A DNA stretch of 60,863 bases from Phycisphaerae bacterium (GTDB lineage: Bacteria > Planctomycetota > Phycisphaerae > Phycisphaerales > SM1A02), in the NCBI GenBank assembly GCA_002709295.1, contig PAQL01000042.1, positions 1-60,863 of the forward strand, in the 5' to 3' direction. The translations under genes were made by a program, and so were the position numbers. How positions within the stretch are numbered: the stretch's first letter is position 1; every line of letters starts with the position of its first letter. Below the pieces are notes generated by a model. The model worked only from the letters and a program-made list of their open reading frames with translations, had not been told where the DNA came from and ran no database searches. Shown piece by piece: positions 36,031-49,623 of the stretch.

Positions 36031-37929
36031 GTGCGGTCCCCACGATCCCCCCACGAAGTCCATTTCTCGAACCCCGGGCGGAACCGGTTCGAGCGAGCCT
36101 GCTTCGCGGCGGTGCGACCGACGTTGGAGTGGGTGATCGGGATGAACGGTCTGAATCGCCTCTACGTCGACGAGGTTCTCAAGACCGATCCCGAGCTGCC
36201 ACCGGGAAGACGGTTCCTGATGGGGTTCGGCTGCGGCTACCTGGTCTCCGACGAGGAGATCGAGCGCATCCCGAAGGAGGGGCCGCTGGTGGTGGTGGCG
36301 AACCATCCCTTCGGCGGGCTGGATGCGATGATCCTCGACGACCTCATCTCCAGGGTCCGGCCGGACGTGCGGTTTCTCGCCAACGGCATCCTCGCCAACG
36401 TTCCCGCGATCAAGGATCGCTTCTTCAATGTCGATCCCTTCGGGGGCAAGGGGGCGCCGAGCCGGAACGCCCGATCGATCCGCCGGGCGATGGACTGGAT
36501 CCGCGACGGCCACATCCTCGGGGTCTTTCCCGCGGGTGAGGTCTCCTCGATCGCCTGGAACCGGTTCACCCCGACCGACGGCCCCTGGAATCCGATCATC
36601 GCCAAGATGATCAAGCAGACCGGGGCCACGGTGCTTCCGGTGTTCTTCGAGGGGTCCAACTCCCCGCGCTTCCATGCGGCGGGTCTTCTCTCTCCGTACC
36701 TGCGCACGCTGCTGCTGGGACGCGAGCTTCTGAAGGTCCGGGGTCGACGGGTCCGGGTGGCCATCGGTTCTCCGCTGCCGGTCCAGCAGCTCGATCGCTT
36801 CTCCGATCCCGCGGACCTCACCAGCTTCCTGCGGATGCGGACCTTCGTCCTTCGATCCCGACTCGAGCGTGAGGAACCCATCCGAAGCTCGCGGCTGCGG
36901 CGCATCCTTCGTGGAGACCCCGCCAGTTCCCGACGTCAGCCCGTCAGCATGGAGCCGGTGCCCACGGTGCCGGTGGATCCCCCCGACAAGCTCGCCGCGG
37001 AGATCCTCTCGCTGCCGCCCGAACAGGTGCTTCTGCGTCGTGGCGACCAGCGGGTGATCTTCGCCGAAGCGGATCAGATCCCCCGGGGTCTGCGGGAGAT
37101 CGGACGACTTCGGGAGATCAGCTTCCGAGCCGCCGGAGAGGGCACCGGAAAGGCGTGCGACCTCGACCGCTTCGACGACTGGTATCTCCACCTGATCCAC
37201 TGGAACGACGCGACCGGCGAGATCGTGGGGGCGTATCGACTCGGACCGACGGATCGGATTCTGGAGCGGCAGGGCGTGGACGGTCTCTACACCCGGACGC
37301 TCTTCCACTTCGACACCCAGCTCATCGAGGAGCTCGGTCCGTCGCTGGAGATGGGGCGGTCCTTCATCCGACCCGAATACCAGCGTCGATCCGAGCCGTT
37401 GATGCTTCTCTGGAAGGGCATCGGCCGCTTTGCGAGTCTGCATCCCCGGTACCGGAAGCTCTTCGGGCCGGTCTCGATCAGCGCCGACTATCACGCGACC
37501 TCGACTCGTCTGCTGCTGTCGTTCCTCAAGGCCAGCCAGTCGGTCTCCGGTCTCTCCCGGCTGGTGCGACCTCGAAAGCCGGTGCGGAACGTCAAGCCTC
37601 GCGACTGGGATCCGTCCACGATCGGTTCGATCCGGAACCTCGAGGACGTCGACGAGCTGGTCCGGGAGATCGAGCGGAACGAACGGGCGGTCCCGGTCCT
37701 CGTCCGTCAGTATCTGAAGCTCGGGGGGGTGTTCCTCGGCTTCAACGTCGATCCGGACTTCAGCGACGTCGTCGACGGCCTCGTGCTCGTGGATCTCCTG
37801 AAGATGAGTCGGCGACTGCTCCGCTTCTACTTCGGTGAGGAGGGGGCGGTTCGCTTCGTCGACCACCATGCCGAGGCGGACAAGGGGCTGCAGCAGGCCG
37901 CCGCGGCGTCGGCGGAGTCGGCCTCGTGA
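36031..37929 (+). CDS. Bifunctional acyltransferase, OlsF-like
   Basis: 632 residues. The first half is a PlsC-type acyltransferase: VVVANHPFGGLDAMIL is the NHxxxxD active site, FPAGEVSSI the acceptor motif. The second half (about 345-600) is an OlsB-like GNAT-type N-acyltransferase: FRAAGEGTGKACDLDRFDDWYLHLI, then GAYRLGPTDRIL and SLEMGRSFIRPEYQRR. This order matches OlsF, which builds ornithine lipids alone, adding the amide-linked and then the ester-linked acyl chain. The acceptor amino acid is not proven. GTG at 36031 is assumed. It is coupled to the next gene by GTGA. Confidence 0.85.
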   Translation: MRSPRSPHEVHFSNPGRNRFERACFAAVRPTLEWVIGMNGLNRLYVDEVLKTDPELPPGRRFLMGFGCGYLVSDEEIERIPKEGPLVVVANHPFGGLDAMILDDLISRVRPDVRFLANGILANVPAIKDRFFNVDPFGGKGAPSRNARSIRRAMDWIRDGHILGVFPAGEVSSIAWNRFTPTDGPWNPIIAKMIKQTGATVLPVFFEGSNSPRFHAAGLLSPYLRTLLLGRELLKVRGRRVRVAIGSPLPVQQLDRFSDPADLTSFLRMRTFVLRSRLEREEPIRSSRLRRILRGDPASSRRQPVSMEPVPTVPVDPPDKLAAEILSLPPEQVLLRRGDQRVIFAEADQIPRGLREIGRLREISFRAAGEGTGKACDLDRFDDWYLHLIHWNDATGEIVGAYRLGPTDRILERQGVDGLYTRTLFHFDTQLIEELGPSLEMGRSFIRPEYQRRSEPLMLLWKGIGRFASLHPRYRKLFGPVSISADYHATSTRLLLSFLKASQSVSGLSRLVRPRKPVRNVKPRDWDPSTIGSIRNLEDVDELVREIERNERAVPVLVRQYLKLGGVFLGFNVDPDFSDVVDGLVLVDLLKMSRRLLRFYFGEEGAVRFVDHHAEADKGLQQAAAASAESAS

Positions 37930-38675
37930 GCATGACTCCGGGCGGGGGATGGAGATGCTTCATCCCCGTCCTGCTGACGGCATGCATCCTCACGGCCATG
38001 GGCGGATCCGCGACGGCCTCGATGCCGCCATCCGCATCCACCCACGCGATCGAGGATCTTCCGGTCGTGGATCGAGTGACCGCGCCGGAGCTGGAGTCGG
38101 GGTGGAGGAATCTCCGGATCATCGAGGAGGAGGCGGAACGAGCGCCGCGTCCGCCCCACGTCACCCTCGAGGGAGTGCTCGAACAGGAGTCGGTCCTGGT
38201 CCGCCCGCTCGCCGAGGGCGGCGGGAGGGTCGGGGAGTGGTTCATCCGCGCCGATGACGGAACGATCGTGGCCTGCGCGGTGGAATCGCCGCCGTCACCA
38301 CCCCCTGCGGTCGGTGAGCGGGTGGTGATGAGCGTGGCGACCGCGGGCCTCCTCGAGGCGGTCGGTCGCGACGGGAAGAAGAGAACCTGGCCCCTGAATG
38401 CGGCACGATTCCTCGCGACCGGGCCCGCCGCATCGGGATTCTCCGGTCCGAGATGGGTCGTGGGGCCGATTCTGGTGCTGCTGATCGTCTGGATGGTCCT
38501 GGCGGTCCGGATCAGGCGCTCAAGTCCCGCCCGGGTGACGGTCGACCGACCCGGCCCGGTGACCGGACCCGGGGAGGAGGACCTGCCCGATGACCCTGCG
38601 GAGGCTCTGTCGAGGCTGGCCGCCCTTCATGATGGCGAGTCGGGTGAGGATCAGACGAAGAAGTCTTCGCCATGA
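37926..38675 (+). CDS. Exported membrane-anchored protein of unknown function
   Basis: 249 residues. An N-terminal signal (CFIPVLLTACILTAMGGSATA) and a C-terminal membrane segment (WVVGPILVLLIVWMVLAVRI, about 178-197) flank a periplasmic domain with the phrase TLEGVLEQESVLVRPLAEGGG, reminiscent of small OB-type envelope domains. The remaining C-terminal tail is cytoplasmic. Start GTG at 37926 overlaps the olsF-like stop; its own stop overlaps the aroB start. Function unknown. Confidence 0.75.
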   Translation: MSMTPGGGWRCFIPVLLTACILTAMGGSATASMPPSASTHAIEDLPVVDRVTAPELESGWRNLRIIEEEAERAPRPPHVTLEGVLEQESVLVRPLAEGGGRVGEWFIRADDGTIVACAVESPPSPPPAVGERVVMSVATAGLLEAVGRDGKKRTWPLNAARFLATGPAASGFSGPRWVVGPILVLLIVWMVLAVRIRRSSPARVTVDRPGPVTGPGEEDLPDDPAEALSRLAALHDGESGEDQTKKSSP

Positions 38676-39811
38676 GTGATCACCAGCGTCTGGAACTCGA
38701 CCTGCCCGGTACCGATCAGCGATCCACGATGATCGTCGGTCGAGGTCTGCTGTCTCAGGCTGGAGACCTTGTCCGCGAGGAGGCCGGGCGGGCCTCGGGG
38801 GACCGGGTGCACCTGGTGGTCGATCGAGGTCCCGGCGACGTGGTCGCGACCCGACACGCCGCGGTGCTCGAAGCGGCGCTTCGAGGGGACGGCGGGGTGT
38901 CACTGGGGCTGGTGGAGGCCAGTGAGTCCAACAAGTCGATCGAGACGATCGTGCAGGGATGGGACCGGCTGGCCGACGCCGGTGTCGATCGAAAGGGGCT
39001 GGTGGTCGGCATCGGTGGCGGCATCGTGTGCGACCTCGCGGGATACCTGGCGTCCAGCTGGATGCGAGGGGTCCGGCTGGCCCTGGTGCCGACCACGCTG
39101 TTGTCCATGGTGGATGCGGGCCTCGGTGGCAAGACCGGCATCAACCGACCTCTGCCCGGTGGCGGCCTGGGGAAGAACCTGGTCGGTGCCTTCTGGCCGG
39201 CCCGTCTGGTGGTCTGTGACACCGACACCCTGGAGACCCTGGGGGAGCGTGAGTTCCGCGCCGGCCTCGCCGAGTGCGTCAAGCACGGGTTGATCGAGGG
39301 AGAAGAGACCCTGGCCGCGCTGGATGCCGATCTTCCCGGGGTGCTGGGCCGCGATCCGGAGGTCATGCCTCGATTCGTGGCCCGCTCCGCATCGGTCAAG
39401 GCCGAGGTGGTGCGTCGCGATTTCAGGGAGGGCGGGGAGCGGGCGCTGCTGAATCTCGGGCACACCTACGCCCACGCGATCGAAAGCCGGTCCGAGCTCG
39501 GTCTGTTGCACGGAGAGGCGGTCTCGATCGGCCTGGTTGCCGCGGCCAGCGCCTCGGAGGCGGCGGGGCTGGCTTCACCGGGGCTGGCGGCCCGGGTGAG
39601 CCGGATTCTCCAGGGATGCGGTCTGCCGGTCTCCATTCCGGGGGGTGGAGGGGGGCTCGTGGCCGACTTGCGAGGAGCGATGCAGCTGGACAAGAAGAAC
39701 TCGGGGGGGCGATTGACCCTTGTTCTGCCCGTCTCGCCCGGAGACTGTCGGATCGTCCCGGATCCCGAGGAGGGGGTCGTGATGGCGGGCTGGAGCGCGG
39801 TCACGGACTGA
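38672..39811 (+). CDS. aroB: 3-dehydroquinate synthase
   Basis: AroB converts DAHP to 3-dehydroquinate, step two of the shikimate pathway, using NAD and zinc. The 379-residue protein has the NAD-binding GIGGGIVCDLAGYLASSWMRG, the PTTLLSMVDAGLGGKTGIN active-site segment, and the zinc ligands in EFRAGLAECVKHGLIEG, NLGHTYAHAIE and LLHGEAVSIGL. ATG at 38672 overlaps the upstream stop (ATGA), so it is coupled with the 37926 gene. No other aro gene is nearby. Confidence 0.96.
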   Translation: MSDHQRLELDLPGTDQRSTMIVGRGLLSQAGDLVREEAGRASGDRVHLVVDRGPGDVVATRHAAVLEAALRGDGGVSLGLVEASESNKSIETIVQGWDRLADAGVDRKGLVVGIGGGIVCDLAGYLASSWMRGVRLALVPTTLLSMVDAGLGGKTGINRPLPGGGLGKNLVGAFWPARLVVCDTDTLETLGEREFRAGLAECVKHGLIEGEETLAALDADLPGVLGRDPEVMPRFVARSASVKAEVVRRDFREGGERALLNLGHTYAHAIESRSELGLLHGEAVSIGLVAAASASEAAGLASPGLAARVSRILQGCGLPVSIPGGGGGLVADLRGAMQLDKKNSGGRLTLVLPVSPGDCRIVPDPEEGVVMAGWSAVTD

Positions 39812-40016: not shown

Positions 40017-41336
40017 ATGCGGATCATCTCGATCGTGAACCAGAAGGGCGGCTGCGGAAAGACCACCACCTCGGTCAATCTCGCGGCGATGCTCGCTTCC
40101 ATGGGTCGACGGGTCATGCTCGTCGATCTGGATCCCCAGTCCCACTGCGCCGCGGCCCTCGGCGTTCCCGAGGAGGAGATCGAGTACAGCACCATCGATC
40201 TGCTGCTCGACCCTCCGGTCGAACGGATGACGCCGCCGAAGATCGCCGCTCGGACCTGGGAGGTGGTTCACGGTCTCCGGCTCCTTCCCAGCACCGTCAG
40301 TCTGGCCCGGGCCGAGGCGCCCGGGGGCGGGCTCATGGAGGCGGGGGATCGTGATCGTCGACTGCGACGGGGGCTCGAGGTCTTCTCGGAGTCCCTCGAC
40401 TACTGCATCGTCGACTGTCCGCCGACCATCGGTCTTCTGACCTTCAACGCCCTGCGAGCCGCCGACGAGGTCCTGGTTCCGGTGGAGACCGGTTTTCTCG
40501 CGGCTCGAGGCGCCCAGAGGCAGTGGGCCACCCTTCGGGCGATGGCCGCTCGGATCGGGCAGCCGATGAAGGTCAGGGTCCTGCCGAATCTGCTGCATCC
40601 CGAGCGGGCTCTGGATCGCGAGCTGCTGGCCGGACTCAAGGATCGCTTCGGCCGTGGGGTCTCCCCGGAGCCGATTCGGGATCACATCGCCATCCGGGAA
40701 GCCACCGCCTTCGGCCGTGCGGTCGTCGAGCATGCCCCGGAGTCCGACGCCGCCGAGGACTATCGACGGCTCGCGGCCTGGATCGAGAACGGAGAGGCGG
40801 CGACCGTCGAGCCCGAGGTCGAGCCTTTGCAGGAAGAAGTCGCGCCGACCGGAGCCCCGCGGTCCGAGCCGGCGGCATCACCGGTGGCCGGGGGGGTCAG
40901 ATCGGTCGAGGTCTCCGCGCGAGCCGCGGAGCTCGTTCAGCGGATGCGTCCTCGCACCGGTCCCGGACCGGTCGCCGGAGGGCAGCCCATGCCGCCCGCG
41001 ATGCCTCGACCTTTCGACCGCAGGGTGCGTATCTCGGTTCCCGCGGCCCTCGGGCGAACCATCCGGATCGTCGGGGATCTGAACCACTGGCAGCCCGACG
41101 GTGTCCCGTTGGCGGGGATCCCCGGTCTGGCCGACGATTTCGTGGGGATCGACCTTCCGGCCAACGGTCCCCTCCGATATCGCCTGCTCGTCGATGGCAA
41201 GGTGATGCTTGATCCGGTCAACCCGGTCGTCGCCGAAGGGCCCGACGGCCAGCCGGCCAGCGTGATCGCACTGGAACGGGAGTCCGCTCTGGTTCCTGAA
41301 TCGCCCGGAGGCGACCCCACCCGTCGCCCCCTCTGA
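40017..41336 (+). CDS. ParA-type ATPase fused to a CBM48 glycogen-binding module
   Basis: 439 residues. Residues 1-260 are a ParA/Soj ATPase: deviant Walker A KGGCGKTTT at 10-18, LVDLDPQSHCAAALG, Walker B YCIVDCPPTIG near 129. A Pro/Glu-rich linker (265-335) leads to an AMPK/isoamylase-type E-set module at about 337-418: RIVGDLNHWQPDGVPLAGI and LRYRLLVDGKVMLDPVNPVV match the carbohydrate-binding consensus. No ParB or parS is seen beside it. ParA proteins position DNA, chemoreceptors or carboxysomes; here cargo could be storage polysaccharide. ATG at 40017. Confidence 0.9.
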   Translation: MRIISIVNQKGGCGKTTTSVNLAAMLASMGRRVMLVDLDPQSHCAAALGVPEEEIEYSTIDLLLDPPVERMTPPKIAARTWEVVHGLRLLPSTVSLARAEAPGGGLMEAGDRDRRLRRGLEVFSESLDYCIVDCPPTIGLLTFNALRAADEVLVPVETGFLAARGAQRQWATLRAMAARIGQPMKVRVLPNLLHPERALDRELLAGLKDRFGRGVSPEPIRDHIAIREATAFGRAVVEHAPESDAAEDYRRLAAWIENGEAATVEPEVEPLQEEVAPTGAPRSEPAASPVAGGVRSVEVSARAAELVQRMRPRTGPGPVAGGQPMPPAMPRPFDRRVRISVPAALGRTIRIVGDLNHWQPDGVPLAGIPGLADDFVGIDLPANGPLRYRLLVDGKVMLDPVNPVVAEGPDGQPASVIALERESALVPESPGGDPTRRPL

Positions 41337-41400
41337 CCGCCCCTTGATCGTCTCGGCATCCGCCGAGAATCCCGTCCGCCCGGTTTCGGAGAGTGAAGCC

Positions 41401-42792
41401 ATGGAGACCGCCCATGACCCTTTCGACGAACTGACGTCGCTCTATCTGGGCGGCGCCCCGGGGACATCGCCGGTGGCTCCGGTGACGATGCCGGAGTCGA
41501 TCGCCCGCGAGGAGGACCGGACCACGGACATCGCGGTGAATGACATCGGGGTGACGGTCGCGTTGTGTGGTCATCTGCCGGTGATGGCCGGTCTCTGGGT
41601 GACCCAGTACGCCGAGAAGATCGCCGCCGCCCACGGCCCCACCGGGTTGGTCCGGCTCGAGGGAGGACGGTGTCTGCTGGAGATCCTCCGTCCCGATGCG
41701 AAGACCACGGACCTTGCGGAGAACCGTCGGCCGGTCGATCTGCTGGAGCACGTCTCCCAGCTCGCCGCCGGCCGCATCCGCCGTTGGATCGTCTGCGTGG
41801 ATGACCGGGATGCCGCGGCTTCGGTGCGGGCGGGGGCCGAGGAGGTGGTGATTCTCACCGCGGCGGACAAGCCCGCGGTCATCGAGGCCTACCGCCTTGC
41901 CAAGAGTGCCGCCGCGAGGGTCGCGGATCCCGATTCGCTTGAACTCGGACTGGTGCTGGTCGGCATGGACGACGACAAGGCGGAGAACCTCTCGGAGCGT
42001 CTGGCGCCGGTGACGGCCCGGCATCTGGACCGGGAGCTTCCGGTGCGGGCCACGGTGCGACGCATCGACGTGGTCGAGGGGTCGATTCGCCAGGTGTTCG
42101 ACGAAGCCTCGCGGGTGCCCGCCGAGGAGGTCGTGGAAGCGATTCTGGAGGCGATCTCGGTCGCCGCATCGGTCCGCAGCGAGGAGGACGAGGATCCATG
42201 GAGCTCGGTCGTTCCGCCGGCCTCCGACGGGCCTCGACTGCGGATCGCGACCGACGATGCTCTGGAGGAGATCCGGCAGCCGATTCGTCTGGCTCCGGCT
42301 CCGGTCCTCGAGGAGCCGGCCGTGGACGAGCGTGAGATCGTGATGTCCGGACTCGAGGAGGCTCCCGGGGAGGTCGAGGAGTCGATCCCGGTGATGGAGG
42401 CCTCGTCCGTCACGTCGGATCCCGATGTCGAGGGCGAAGGCCTTTCGGATCTGCTCGGTCTCCGGGCCGTCGACTGGCATCTTCCCAACGCCGGTGGTGT
42501 CGAGTACGCCTGTGACGCGGATGGAAGGCTGCACCTGCTGGCGATGGATGGTGATGTCACCGGCCTGCACGTGGCGGCGGCCTGGATCGGCGGTCAGCAG
42601 CGTCAGTTCGCGGCGGCGAGCGGGCTCGATGCCGAGTCGGTCGGCGACCCCTGCCTTCATGTCATCACCGAGCATCCCCCTCGAGTGGCCGATCTTCATC
42701 GAACCGGACTCCACCTTCATCTTCTGACGAAGGTCGGTCCGGGCGCGGTCCTGGTGCCGCTCAATGACGAGTCCAACAGGACCTCCGGCTGA
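41401..42792 (+). CDS. ParA/FlhG-like protein without Walker A, partner of the ParA-CBM48 gene
   Basis: 463 residues. Residues 40-260 resemble a SIMIBI-type fold: VTVALCGHLPVMAGLWVTQYAEKIAAAHG stands where the P-loop would be, but no GKT/GKS is present; later strands LGLVLVGMDDDKAENLSERLAP and RATVRRIDVVEGS fit the same fold. A long acidic linker (270-370) and a C-terminal domain of unknown type (VDWHLPNAGGVEYACDADG) follow. Start ATG at 41401 has a ribosome site GGAGAG; 64 bases after the ParA-CBM48 stop. Probably a pseudo-ATPase working with that protein. Confidence 0.6.
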   Translation: METAHDPFDELTSLYLGGAPGTSPVAPVTMPESIAREEDRTTDIAVNDIGVTVALCGHLPVMAGLWVTQYAEKIAAAHGPTGLVRLEGGRCLLEILRPDAKTTDLAENRRPVDLLEHVSQLAAGRIRRWIVCVDDRDAAASVRAGAEEVVILTAADKPAVIEAYRLAKSAAARVADPDSLELGLVLVGMDDDKAENLSERLAPVTARHLDRELPVRATVRRIDVVEGSIRQVFDEASRVPAEEVVEAILEAISVAASVRSEEDEDPWSSVVPPASDGPRLRIATDDALEEIRQPIRLAPAPVLEEPAVDEREIVMSGLEEAPGEVEESIPVMEASSVTSDPDVEGEGLSDLLGLRAVDWHLPNAGGVEYACDADGRLHLLAMDGDVTGLHVAAAWIGGQQRQFAAASGLDAESVGDPCLHVITEHPPRVADLHRTGLHLHLLTKVGPGAVLVPLNDESNRTSG

Positions 42793-49146: not shown

Positions 49147-49623
49147 GTGTTCTTCTTCGGACAGCACCAGCACACGATCGACGCGAAGCAGCGGCTGGCG
49201 ATCCCAGCGGCGATTCGCGACGTGCTGTCCGAGGAGGTTCACGGCTCGGTGTTCTGGGCCGCTCCCGGTCCGAACGATCAGCTCTGGCTCTGGCCCGAGA
49301 AGACCTTCGAACGCTACGCCGCGAATCTCGAGGGATCCCTGCTGCCTCAGCAGGAGTCCATGGACTACGAGCAGATGCTGTTCGCCCAGTCGCAGCGATG
49401 TCCGGTGGATGCGGCGGGGAGGGGCAGACTCCCCGAGACGCTGTTGAACAGGTTCGATCTCTCCGGGAGCGTGATCGTGCTCGGGGTCAAGGATCACCTC
49501 GAGGTGGTGGACCCCGGCACCTGGGAGCGACTGCAGAGCGGCAAGTGGACGGATCCGCAGATTCTCGAGCGGGCACGGCAGGCTCACCGGGCGCTTCGGG
49601 CATCGGATCGAGGTGGCTCGTGA
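49147..49623 (+). CDS. mraZ: Transcriptional regulator MraZ
   Basis: MraZ is an AbrB-like DNA-binding protein that controls the division and cell wall cluster. The 158-residue product starts MFFFGQHQHTIDAKQRLAIPAAIRD and contains the two SpoVT-AbrB modules (second at about 85-125, RCPVDAAGRGRLPETLLNRFDLSGSVIVLG). Start is GTG at 49147; ribosome site GGAG nine bases upstream. The usual rsmH, ftsL and ftsI do not follow. Instead a terminator and a hairpin-rich region do. Its own operator boxes are at 49069-49103. Confidence 0.93.
   Translation: MFFFGQHQHTIDAKQRLAIPAAIRDVLSEEVHGSVFWAAPGPNDQLWLWPEKTFERYAANLEGSLLPQQESMDYEQMLFAQSQRCPVDAAGRGRLPETLLNRFDLSGSVIVLGVKDHLEVVDPGTWERLQSGKWTDPQILERARQAHRALRASDRGGS

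Follow-up and report, generated by a model that had tools for sequence, protein, structure and literature searches.

A conserved ParA-adaptor gene pair with a CBM48-type domain in a planctomycete order and several other phyla

The window, a 60.9-kb stretch of planctomycete DNA, contains a ParA-family ATPase gene with a C-terminal CBM48-type domain, followed on the same strand after a spacing of 64 bases by the gene for a second protein, hereafter the partner or adaptor (Table 1). The ParA reading frame extends from an ATG at 40017 to a stop at 41336. Its product was matched to AAA_31 (Pfam, E = 6.6e-41) with the full set of ATPase motifs present, and sequence matches to the PDB identified Soj/ParA as the closest solved relatives. 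The start of the partner at the ATG at 41401 is supported by a GGAG sequence nine bases upstream. In agreement with the initial annotation, neither ParB nor parS was found in the window, which was searched for parS-like sites with up to 4 mismatches and for the ParB arginine-patch motif.

Table 1. Coordinates of the ParA-adaptor pair, its domains and motifs, and the upstream neighbour within the window.
Feature	Position	Strand	Basis or remark
aroB (3-dehydroquinate synthase)	38672..39811	+	syntenic neighbour upstream of the pair
ParA-family ATPase with C-terminal CBM48-type domain, 439 aa	40017..41336	+	translation, Pfam, PDB sequence matches, AlphaFold, VIA-align
ParA/Soj ATPase core, residues 1-262; Walker A KGGCGKTT, Walker A' VDLDPQ, Walker B CIVDCPP	40017..40802	+	sequence and structure comparison
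Linker motif in ParA, SARAAELVQRMRP	40914..40952	+	alignment of the ParA proteins of the order
CBM48/AMPK-beta-type E-set domain, about residues 334-418, degenerate	41016..41270	+	Pfam, orthologue alignment, AlphaFold
GGAG, ribosome-binding-like sequence, nine bases before the partner ATG	41388..41391	+	
Partner (adaptor) protein, 463 aa	41401..42792	+	translation, profile searches
N-terminal motif HDPFDELTSLYLGG, the order's version of the LFLS motif	41413..41454	+	in register with LSEISHLFLSS of relatives
FlhG/MinD-fold domain without Walker A, residues 47-262	41539..42186	+	AlphaFold, Foldseek, VIA, profile comparison, partner alignment
C-terminal domain, residues 345-463, related to a NucS-like protein separately encoded in other phyla	42433..42789	+	hhalign, AlphaFold

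The AlphaFold model of the ParA core was closest to Soj, with a VIA-align Z of 36.8 at 1.8 Å over 250 residues, versus Z values of 27 and 26 for FleN and BcsQ. The pattern KGG.GKT was present in the ParA of all 31 genomes sampled from the order, with Walker A' and Walker B likewise found among the invariant columns of the alignment, and the linker motif SARAAELVQRMRP was retained by most of these proteins, including several that have no CBM. Two arginines of Caulobacter ParA, R195 and R224, are needed for nonspecific DNA binding (PMC7229837). Equivalents were present as R and R/K, respectively, in most members of family f4 and in most non-planctomycete members; in the window ParA they are less clearly kept, the basic residues being shifted or replaced relative to these exact columns. 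When compared with five canonical ParA proteins, 56 module-associated ParA domains formed one clade (support 0.997), and the window ParA grouped with three CBM-less ParA proteins of its own family (support 0.976). A second, canonical ParA is encoded in the same genome (L115, 4913-5914), with no ParB within the 10 kb examined there.

The C-terminal region of ParA had been described as a close match to CBM48/AMPK-beta, a claim of which the homology stands and the closeness does not. The window domain scored 13 bits against the Pfam AMPK1_CBM profile, below the cut-off of 26.8, and "close match" is therefore too strong for this protein. Profile searches at the family level gave a clearer result: 15 of the 19 aligned orthologue domains matched AMPK1_CBM at E = 0.01 or better (best 5.8e-16), 10 of the 19 matched CBM_48, and the domain of one orthologue matched AMPK beta structures at E = 5e-10. 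These matches make the CBM48 homology of the window domain secure. At W100, K/R126, W133 and N150, the glycan-contact residues of AMPK-beta, the window domain has W, R, V and A, having lost the second tryptophan and the asparagine. The AMPK-type glycan site (both tryptophans, the basic residue and the asparagine) was intact in 18 of the 31 ParA proteins of the order; the CBM was degenerate in six, including that of the window, and absent from five, while the domains of L043 and L047 have both tryptophans with His in place of Asn. Because the window ParA groups with CBM-less relatives, the CBM is read as decaying in this lineage while ParA and the partner persist. A glycan-binding reading misfits the window.

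Searched by itself, the partner had no Pfam or NCBIfam match. Its AlphaFold model, with pLDDT above 90 across most of both domains, had its best fold matches in FlhG and FleN, with FlhG at the top (4rz2, Foldseek E = 2.5e-5; 4rz3, VIA Z = 11.2, 3.7 Å, 158 residues), and the Walker A pattern G....GK[ST] was absent from all 44 partner proteins. These results bear out the initial annotation of the downstream gene as a ParA/FlhG-fold protein without Walker A. The partner profile also detected MinD/FlhG-like proteins in other planctomycetes, several with DQAxxLR-type starts, the matches lying in the second half of the domain. The C-terminal domain gave a moderate match to the separate NucS-like homologues (hhalign P = 1.2e-4, probability 54%), and a separate homologue from Omnitrophota matched NucS_C weakly (E = 0.05). 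No clear catalytic ExK of the NucS or PD-(D/E)XK type was seen in the alignment examined. The adaptor body of the order is a P-loop-less FlhG fold joined to a NucS-like domain.

ParA and the partner were adjacent in 29 of the 31 sampled genomes of the order, in line with the expected co-occurrence of the downstream gene. In the remaining two, ParA was present and the partner was not recognised by profile search; such absences are soft, since the search has limited sensitivity for a divergent partner and missed a real adaptor in another genome (G057). Genes neighbouring the module in the order were aroB, maf, dnaJ-clpB or flagellar genes, with no glucan genes. In the window's own family, and in part of another, the upstream gene is often aroB, which we regard as a syntenic neighbour outside the module. 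The usual first gene of the dcw cell-division cluster, mraZ (49147-49623), lies some 6 kb downstream of the two genes, and homologues of mraZ also occur near the pair in some relatives. A single open reading frame at 36031-37926 combines Acyltransf_2 and Acetyltransf_5 (acyltransferase and GNAT), recalling ornithine-lipid synthesis fusions.

A restriction of ParA-CBM48 to the order was considered and rejected, as f6 and f8, both sister families, a single genome from another class and other phyla were found to have the architecture as well. An adaptor homologue adjoined ParA-CBM48 in f6, and in f8 ParA-CBM occurred without an adjoining adaptor. A scan of public genomes queried with the CBM alone yielded 80 loci, of which 51 were single-ORF ParA-CBM48 fusions, extending the architecture beyond planctomycetes: the sources were Planctomycetota, Omnitrophota, Desulfobacterota, Rokubacteria, Acidobacteria, Auribacter, a Thiogranum MAG and one Methanomassiliicoccales MAG. 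Both tryptophans and the basic residue were present in all 51 fusions and the asparagine in 47, values obtained with scan patterns that were biased to the first tryptophan or the asparagine region, not to the second tryptophan, and with a ranking that favours similar sequences generally. No account of this architecture was found in the open-access full-text literature searched. The ParA-adaptor module is conserved, being found across several phyla and almost universally within one order of planctomycetes; as a proposed variant of ParA-based positioning it appears to be undescribed.

Several further observations were made on the distribution of these domains. The ParA-CBM of the Methanomassiliicoccales MAG (L135) groups with Desulfobacterota, and its GlgB gene is much like that of a Desulfobacterota locus (L148); misassignment by a binning error, or transfer, is possible. 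Short proteins (about 90-130 aa) consisting of CBM48 alone were encoded at L160 (3953-4240), L149, L154, L164, L165 and L168, and a ParA-CBM gene lies 1.3 kb from one of these. One contig of a viral collection (L229) encodes a CBM48 relative, the sole CBM48 match among the viral contigs, and a plasmid collection yielded three CBM48 matches only, none under an annotated ParA.

Comparison of the genes following ParA-CBM48 revealed a common N-terminal element. In 13 of 15 non-planctomycete fusions the following gene starts with (R/K)xLxx(I/V)..(L/F)FLS, as in KLGKGLEDISYLFLS, PLGRGLEDVSHLFLS and SKRGLEEISHLFLS. The bodies behind this motif vary and comprise a P-loop-less MinD domain, a NucS-like domain, or an HTH with a coiled coil and RodZ_C; the MinD-like domain of the L176 adaptor has a broken P-loop (CbiA match, 1.5e-7). 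Across the six-frame ORFs of the 80 loci (510,150 residues), the motif was counted 17 times, on each occasion in the gene that follows ParA-CBM or otherwise within that locus, counts that describe specificity and constitute no blind test because the expression was composed after inspection of these genes. A genome-wide search with a DNA pattern for the motif, the more independent check, gave matches in 7 of 27 genomes, all carrying ParA-CBM, versus 0 for the reversed control.

The motif and the domains behind it connect other adaptors with that of the window. Two adaptors (L181 and L190) matched the partner profile of the order at E = 1e-39 and 3e-35, with LSEISHLFLSS in register with the window motif HDPFDELTSLYLGG. 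Profile-profile comparison by hhalign linked planctomycete adaptors to the others through their pseudo-MinD domains (P = 6.6e-7) and their NucS-like domains (P = 1.2e-4), versus P = 0.36 and 0.68 for the cross controls. The partner of the order is therefore a fusion of parts encoded separately elsewhere, and that of the window combines the motif, the pseudo-FlhG domain and the NucS-like domain. The N-terminal peptide of ParB, which is hydrophobic with one central Arg/Lys, is sufficient to bind the ParA dimer and to stimulate ParA (PMC12462528). Compared by eye over about ten residues, the adaptor motif (KLGKGLEDISYLFLS, PLGRGLEDVSHLFLS) resembles this peptide, e.g. RLGRGLSSLM (L056), from a true ParB in genome G242; the comparison is weaker for the window and several relatives, whose motifs have no Arg/Lys. 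Two adaptor genes are of separate note. The LFLS-motif protein of L148 (1614-2969) has a MerR-type HTH, a coiled coil and RodZ_C (4.6e-13), a domain content that suggests a membrane-anchored adaptor, and at the second locus of an Acidobacteria MAG (L224, 5163-6913) the gene order is reversed, with the LFLS and NucS-like gene preceding ParA.

The module-associated ParA proteins are a single clade in which the AMPK-type CBM48 is ancestral, and the constant element of the adaptors is the short N-terminal motif. With about even confidence, we read the pair as the form taken in one lineage by a widespread module for ParA-based positioning that dispenses with ParB and uses a pseudo-ATPase as adaptor. 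Points that weigh against this reading are the f8 ParA-CBM genes with no adjoining adaptor, the shifted or replaced basic residues of the window ParA, the by-eye character of the ParB resemblance, the missing Arg/Lys of the window motif and the moderate match of the C-terminal domain. ATP-bound ParA dimers would sit on the nucleoid, and the N-terminal motif of the adaptor would dock at the ParA dimer and stimulate hydrolysis, like the N-terminal peptide of ParB. The adaptor body, assisted by the CBM in most lineages, would tie ParA to a cargo and so bring about the spreading or partition of that cargo. The contact made by the CBM in most lineages may be with an alpha-glucan or with a complex that handles glucan; the lineage of the window would be losing this contact, with selection remaining only on the ParA-adaptor core.

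A more specific proposal, made in the initial annotation, was the positioning or partition of alpha-glucan (glycogen) granules, with CBM48 on the granule surface and ParA spreading the granules over the nucleoid. We consider it unlikely, although several observations point towards it. Both tryptophans persist in every fusion, inside and outside Planctomycetota, and glucan enzymes adjoin the module in a number of loci, namely branching or GH57 enzymes in Omnitrophota (L200, L222 and L223) and GlgB in Desulfobacterota (L148) and in the MAG of L135, amounting to about three independent cases because L222/L223 and L148/L135 are related pairs. At L222 (2892-4430) an Omnitrophota protein combining the LFLS motif, DUF4912 and a Glucodextran_B-like stretch adjoins a GH57 branching enzyme. 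These neighbours support, without proving, a carbohydrate-related cargo in those non-planctomycete lineages. Within the order, phosphorylase was found in 27 of the 31 genomes by TIGR02094 (PF00343 at E = 1e-20 in 14 of the 31), but GlgA was found in only one and GlgB above cut-off in five, and the state of the CBM does not track glucan enzymes. The complete one-contig genome G368 has an intact CBM site, yet had no match to GlgA, GlgB, phosphorylase or GH13. The lost glycan site of the window, its CBM-less nearest relatives and the glucan-free gene neighbourhoods of the order also argue against granule positioning. A correlation between intact CBMs and glycogen genes (17/20 vs 3/11) was dropped because TIGR02094 placed phosphorylase in most genomes. 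Since alpha-glucan branching enzymes adjoin several non-planctomycete loci, a glycan link for the module family appears plausible from gene context; for the organism of the window, glycogen positioning is unlikely.

It is also doubtful that the pair acts as a nucleotide- and glycan-regulated switch and does no positioning, with a ParA/pseudo-FlhG complex toggling a target in the manner of BcsQ, FlhG/FleN or AMPK and with CBM48 as the sensor. FlhG/FleN, the best fold matches of the partner, and BcsQ are regulatory members of the fold, AMPK-beta senses with the same kind of CBM, and MerR genes lie immediately upstream in L205 and L212, but the ParA domain is closest to Soj, with FleN and BcsQ more distant, and no enzyme or regulator that could serve as the target is conserved across lineages. 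A divergent DNA partition system with the adaptor in place of ParB is very unlikely: the ParB-like peptide of the adaptors, the excisionase/MerR-type HTH in those of L148 and L160 and the proximity of the window locus to mraZ would fit it, but the adaptors of the window and of most other loci have no recognised DNA-binding domain, the window has no ParB, G242 encodes a genuine ParB that itself has an LGRGL motif, and the glycan residues would be left unexplained.

ATPases of the ParA/MinD group position chromosomes, plasmids, carboxysomes, flagella and chemoreceptors. Under the reading of the pair as a ParB-less positioning module, a conserved ParA with a fused starch-binding-type domain would extend this list to carbohydrate stores or to another unsuspected cargo. 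Only tentatively can it be proposed that many phyla have a dedicated system for positioning or partition of an alpha-glucan store or glucan-making complex, based on a glycogen-binding ParA and on adaptors with ParB-like peptides, one of them with a dead FlhG scaffold. The adaptor motif would provide a handle, since different proteins bearing this ten-residue N-terminal tag would be recognisable as likely clients of one ParA, and the adaptor itself would exemplify the reuse of an ATPase fold without its nucleotide site, partnering an active ATPase from the same superfamily.

Comparison with known systems revealed partial likeness to each. As in ParABS and Soj-Spo0J, the ParA core, nearest to Soj, is accompanied by an adjacent partner with a hydrophobic-rich N-terminal peptide, containing Arg/Lys in many lineages; unlike those systems, the partner has a P-loop-less FlhG fold and no ParB_N/HTH, parS is missing from the window and ParA carries CBM48. 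McdA/McdB of carboxysomes and similar protein-body systems likewise pair a ParA with a dedicated adjacent non-ParB partner, and McdA structures match the model (Z = 29.5), but other ParA proteins are nearer than McdA, no partner resembling McdB was recognised and the ATPase of the module is fused to a carbohydrate module. The N-terminal domain of the partner shares the fold of FlhG/FleN (MinD-like), from which the protein differs in having neither Walker A nor the DQAxxLR start and in its additional C-terminal domain. The C-terminal model has a strand-helix order compatible with the NucS C-terminal or PD-(D/E)XK nuclease-like domain, although no clear ExK motif was seen and the profile link to the window domain is only moderate. 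In contrast to the glycogen-binding domains of AMPK-beta and CBM48, the domain of the module is fused to ParA and in the window has lost two of the four positions, yet the family domain aligns with them and retains W100, the basic residue at 126, W133 and N150.
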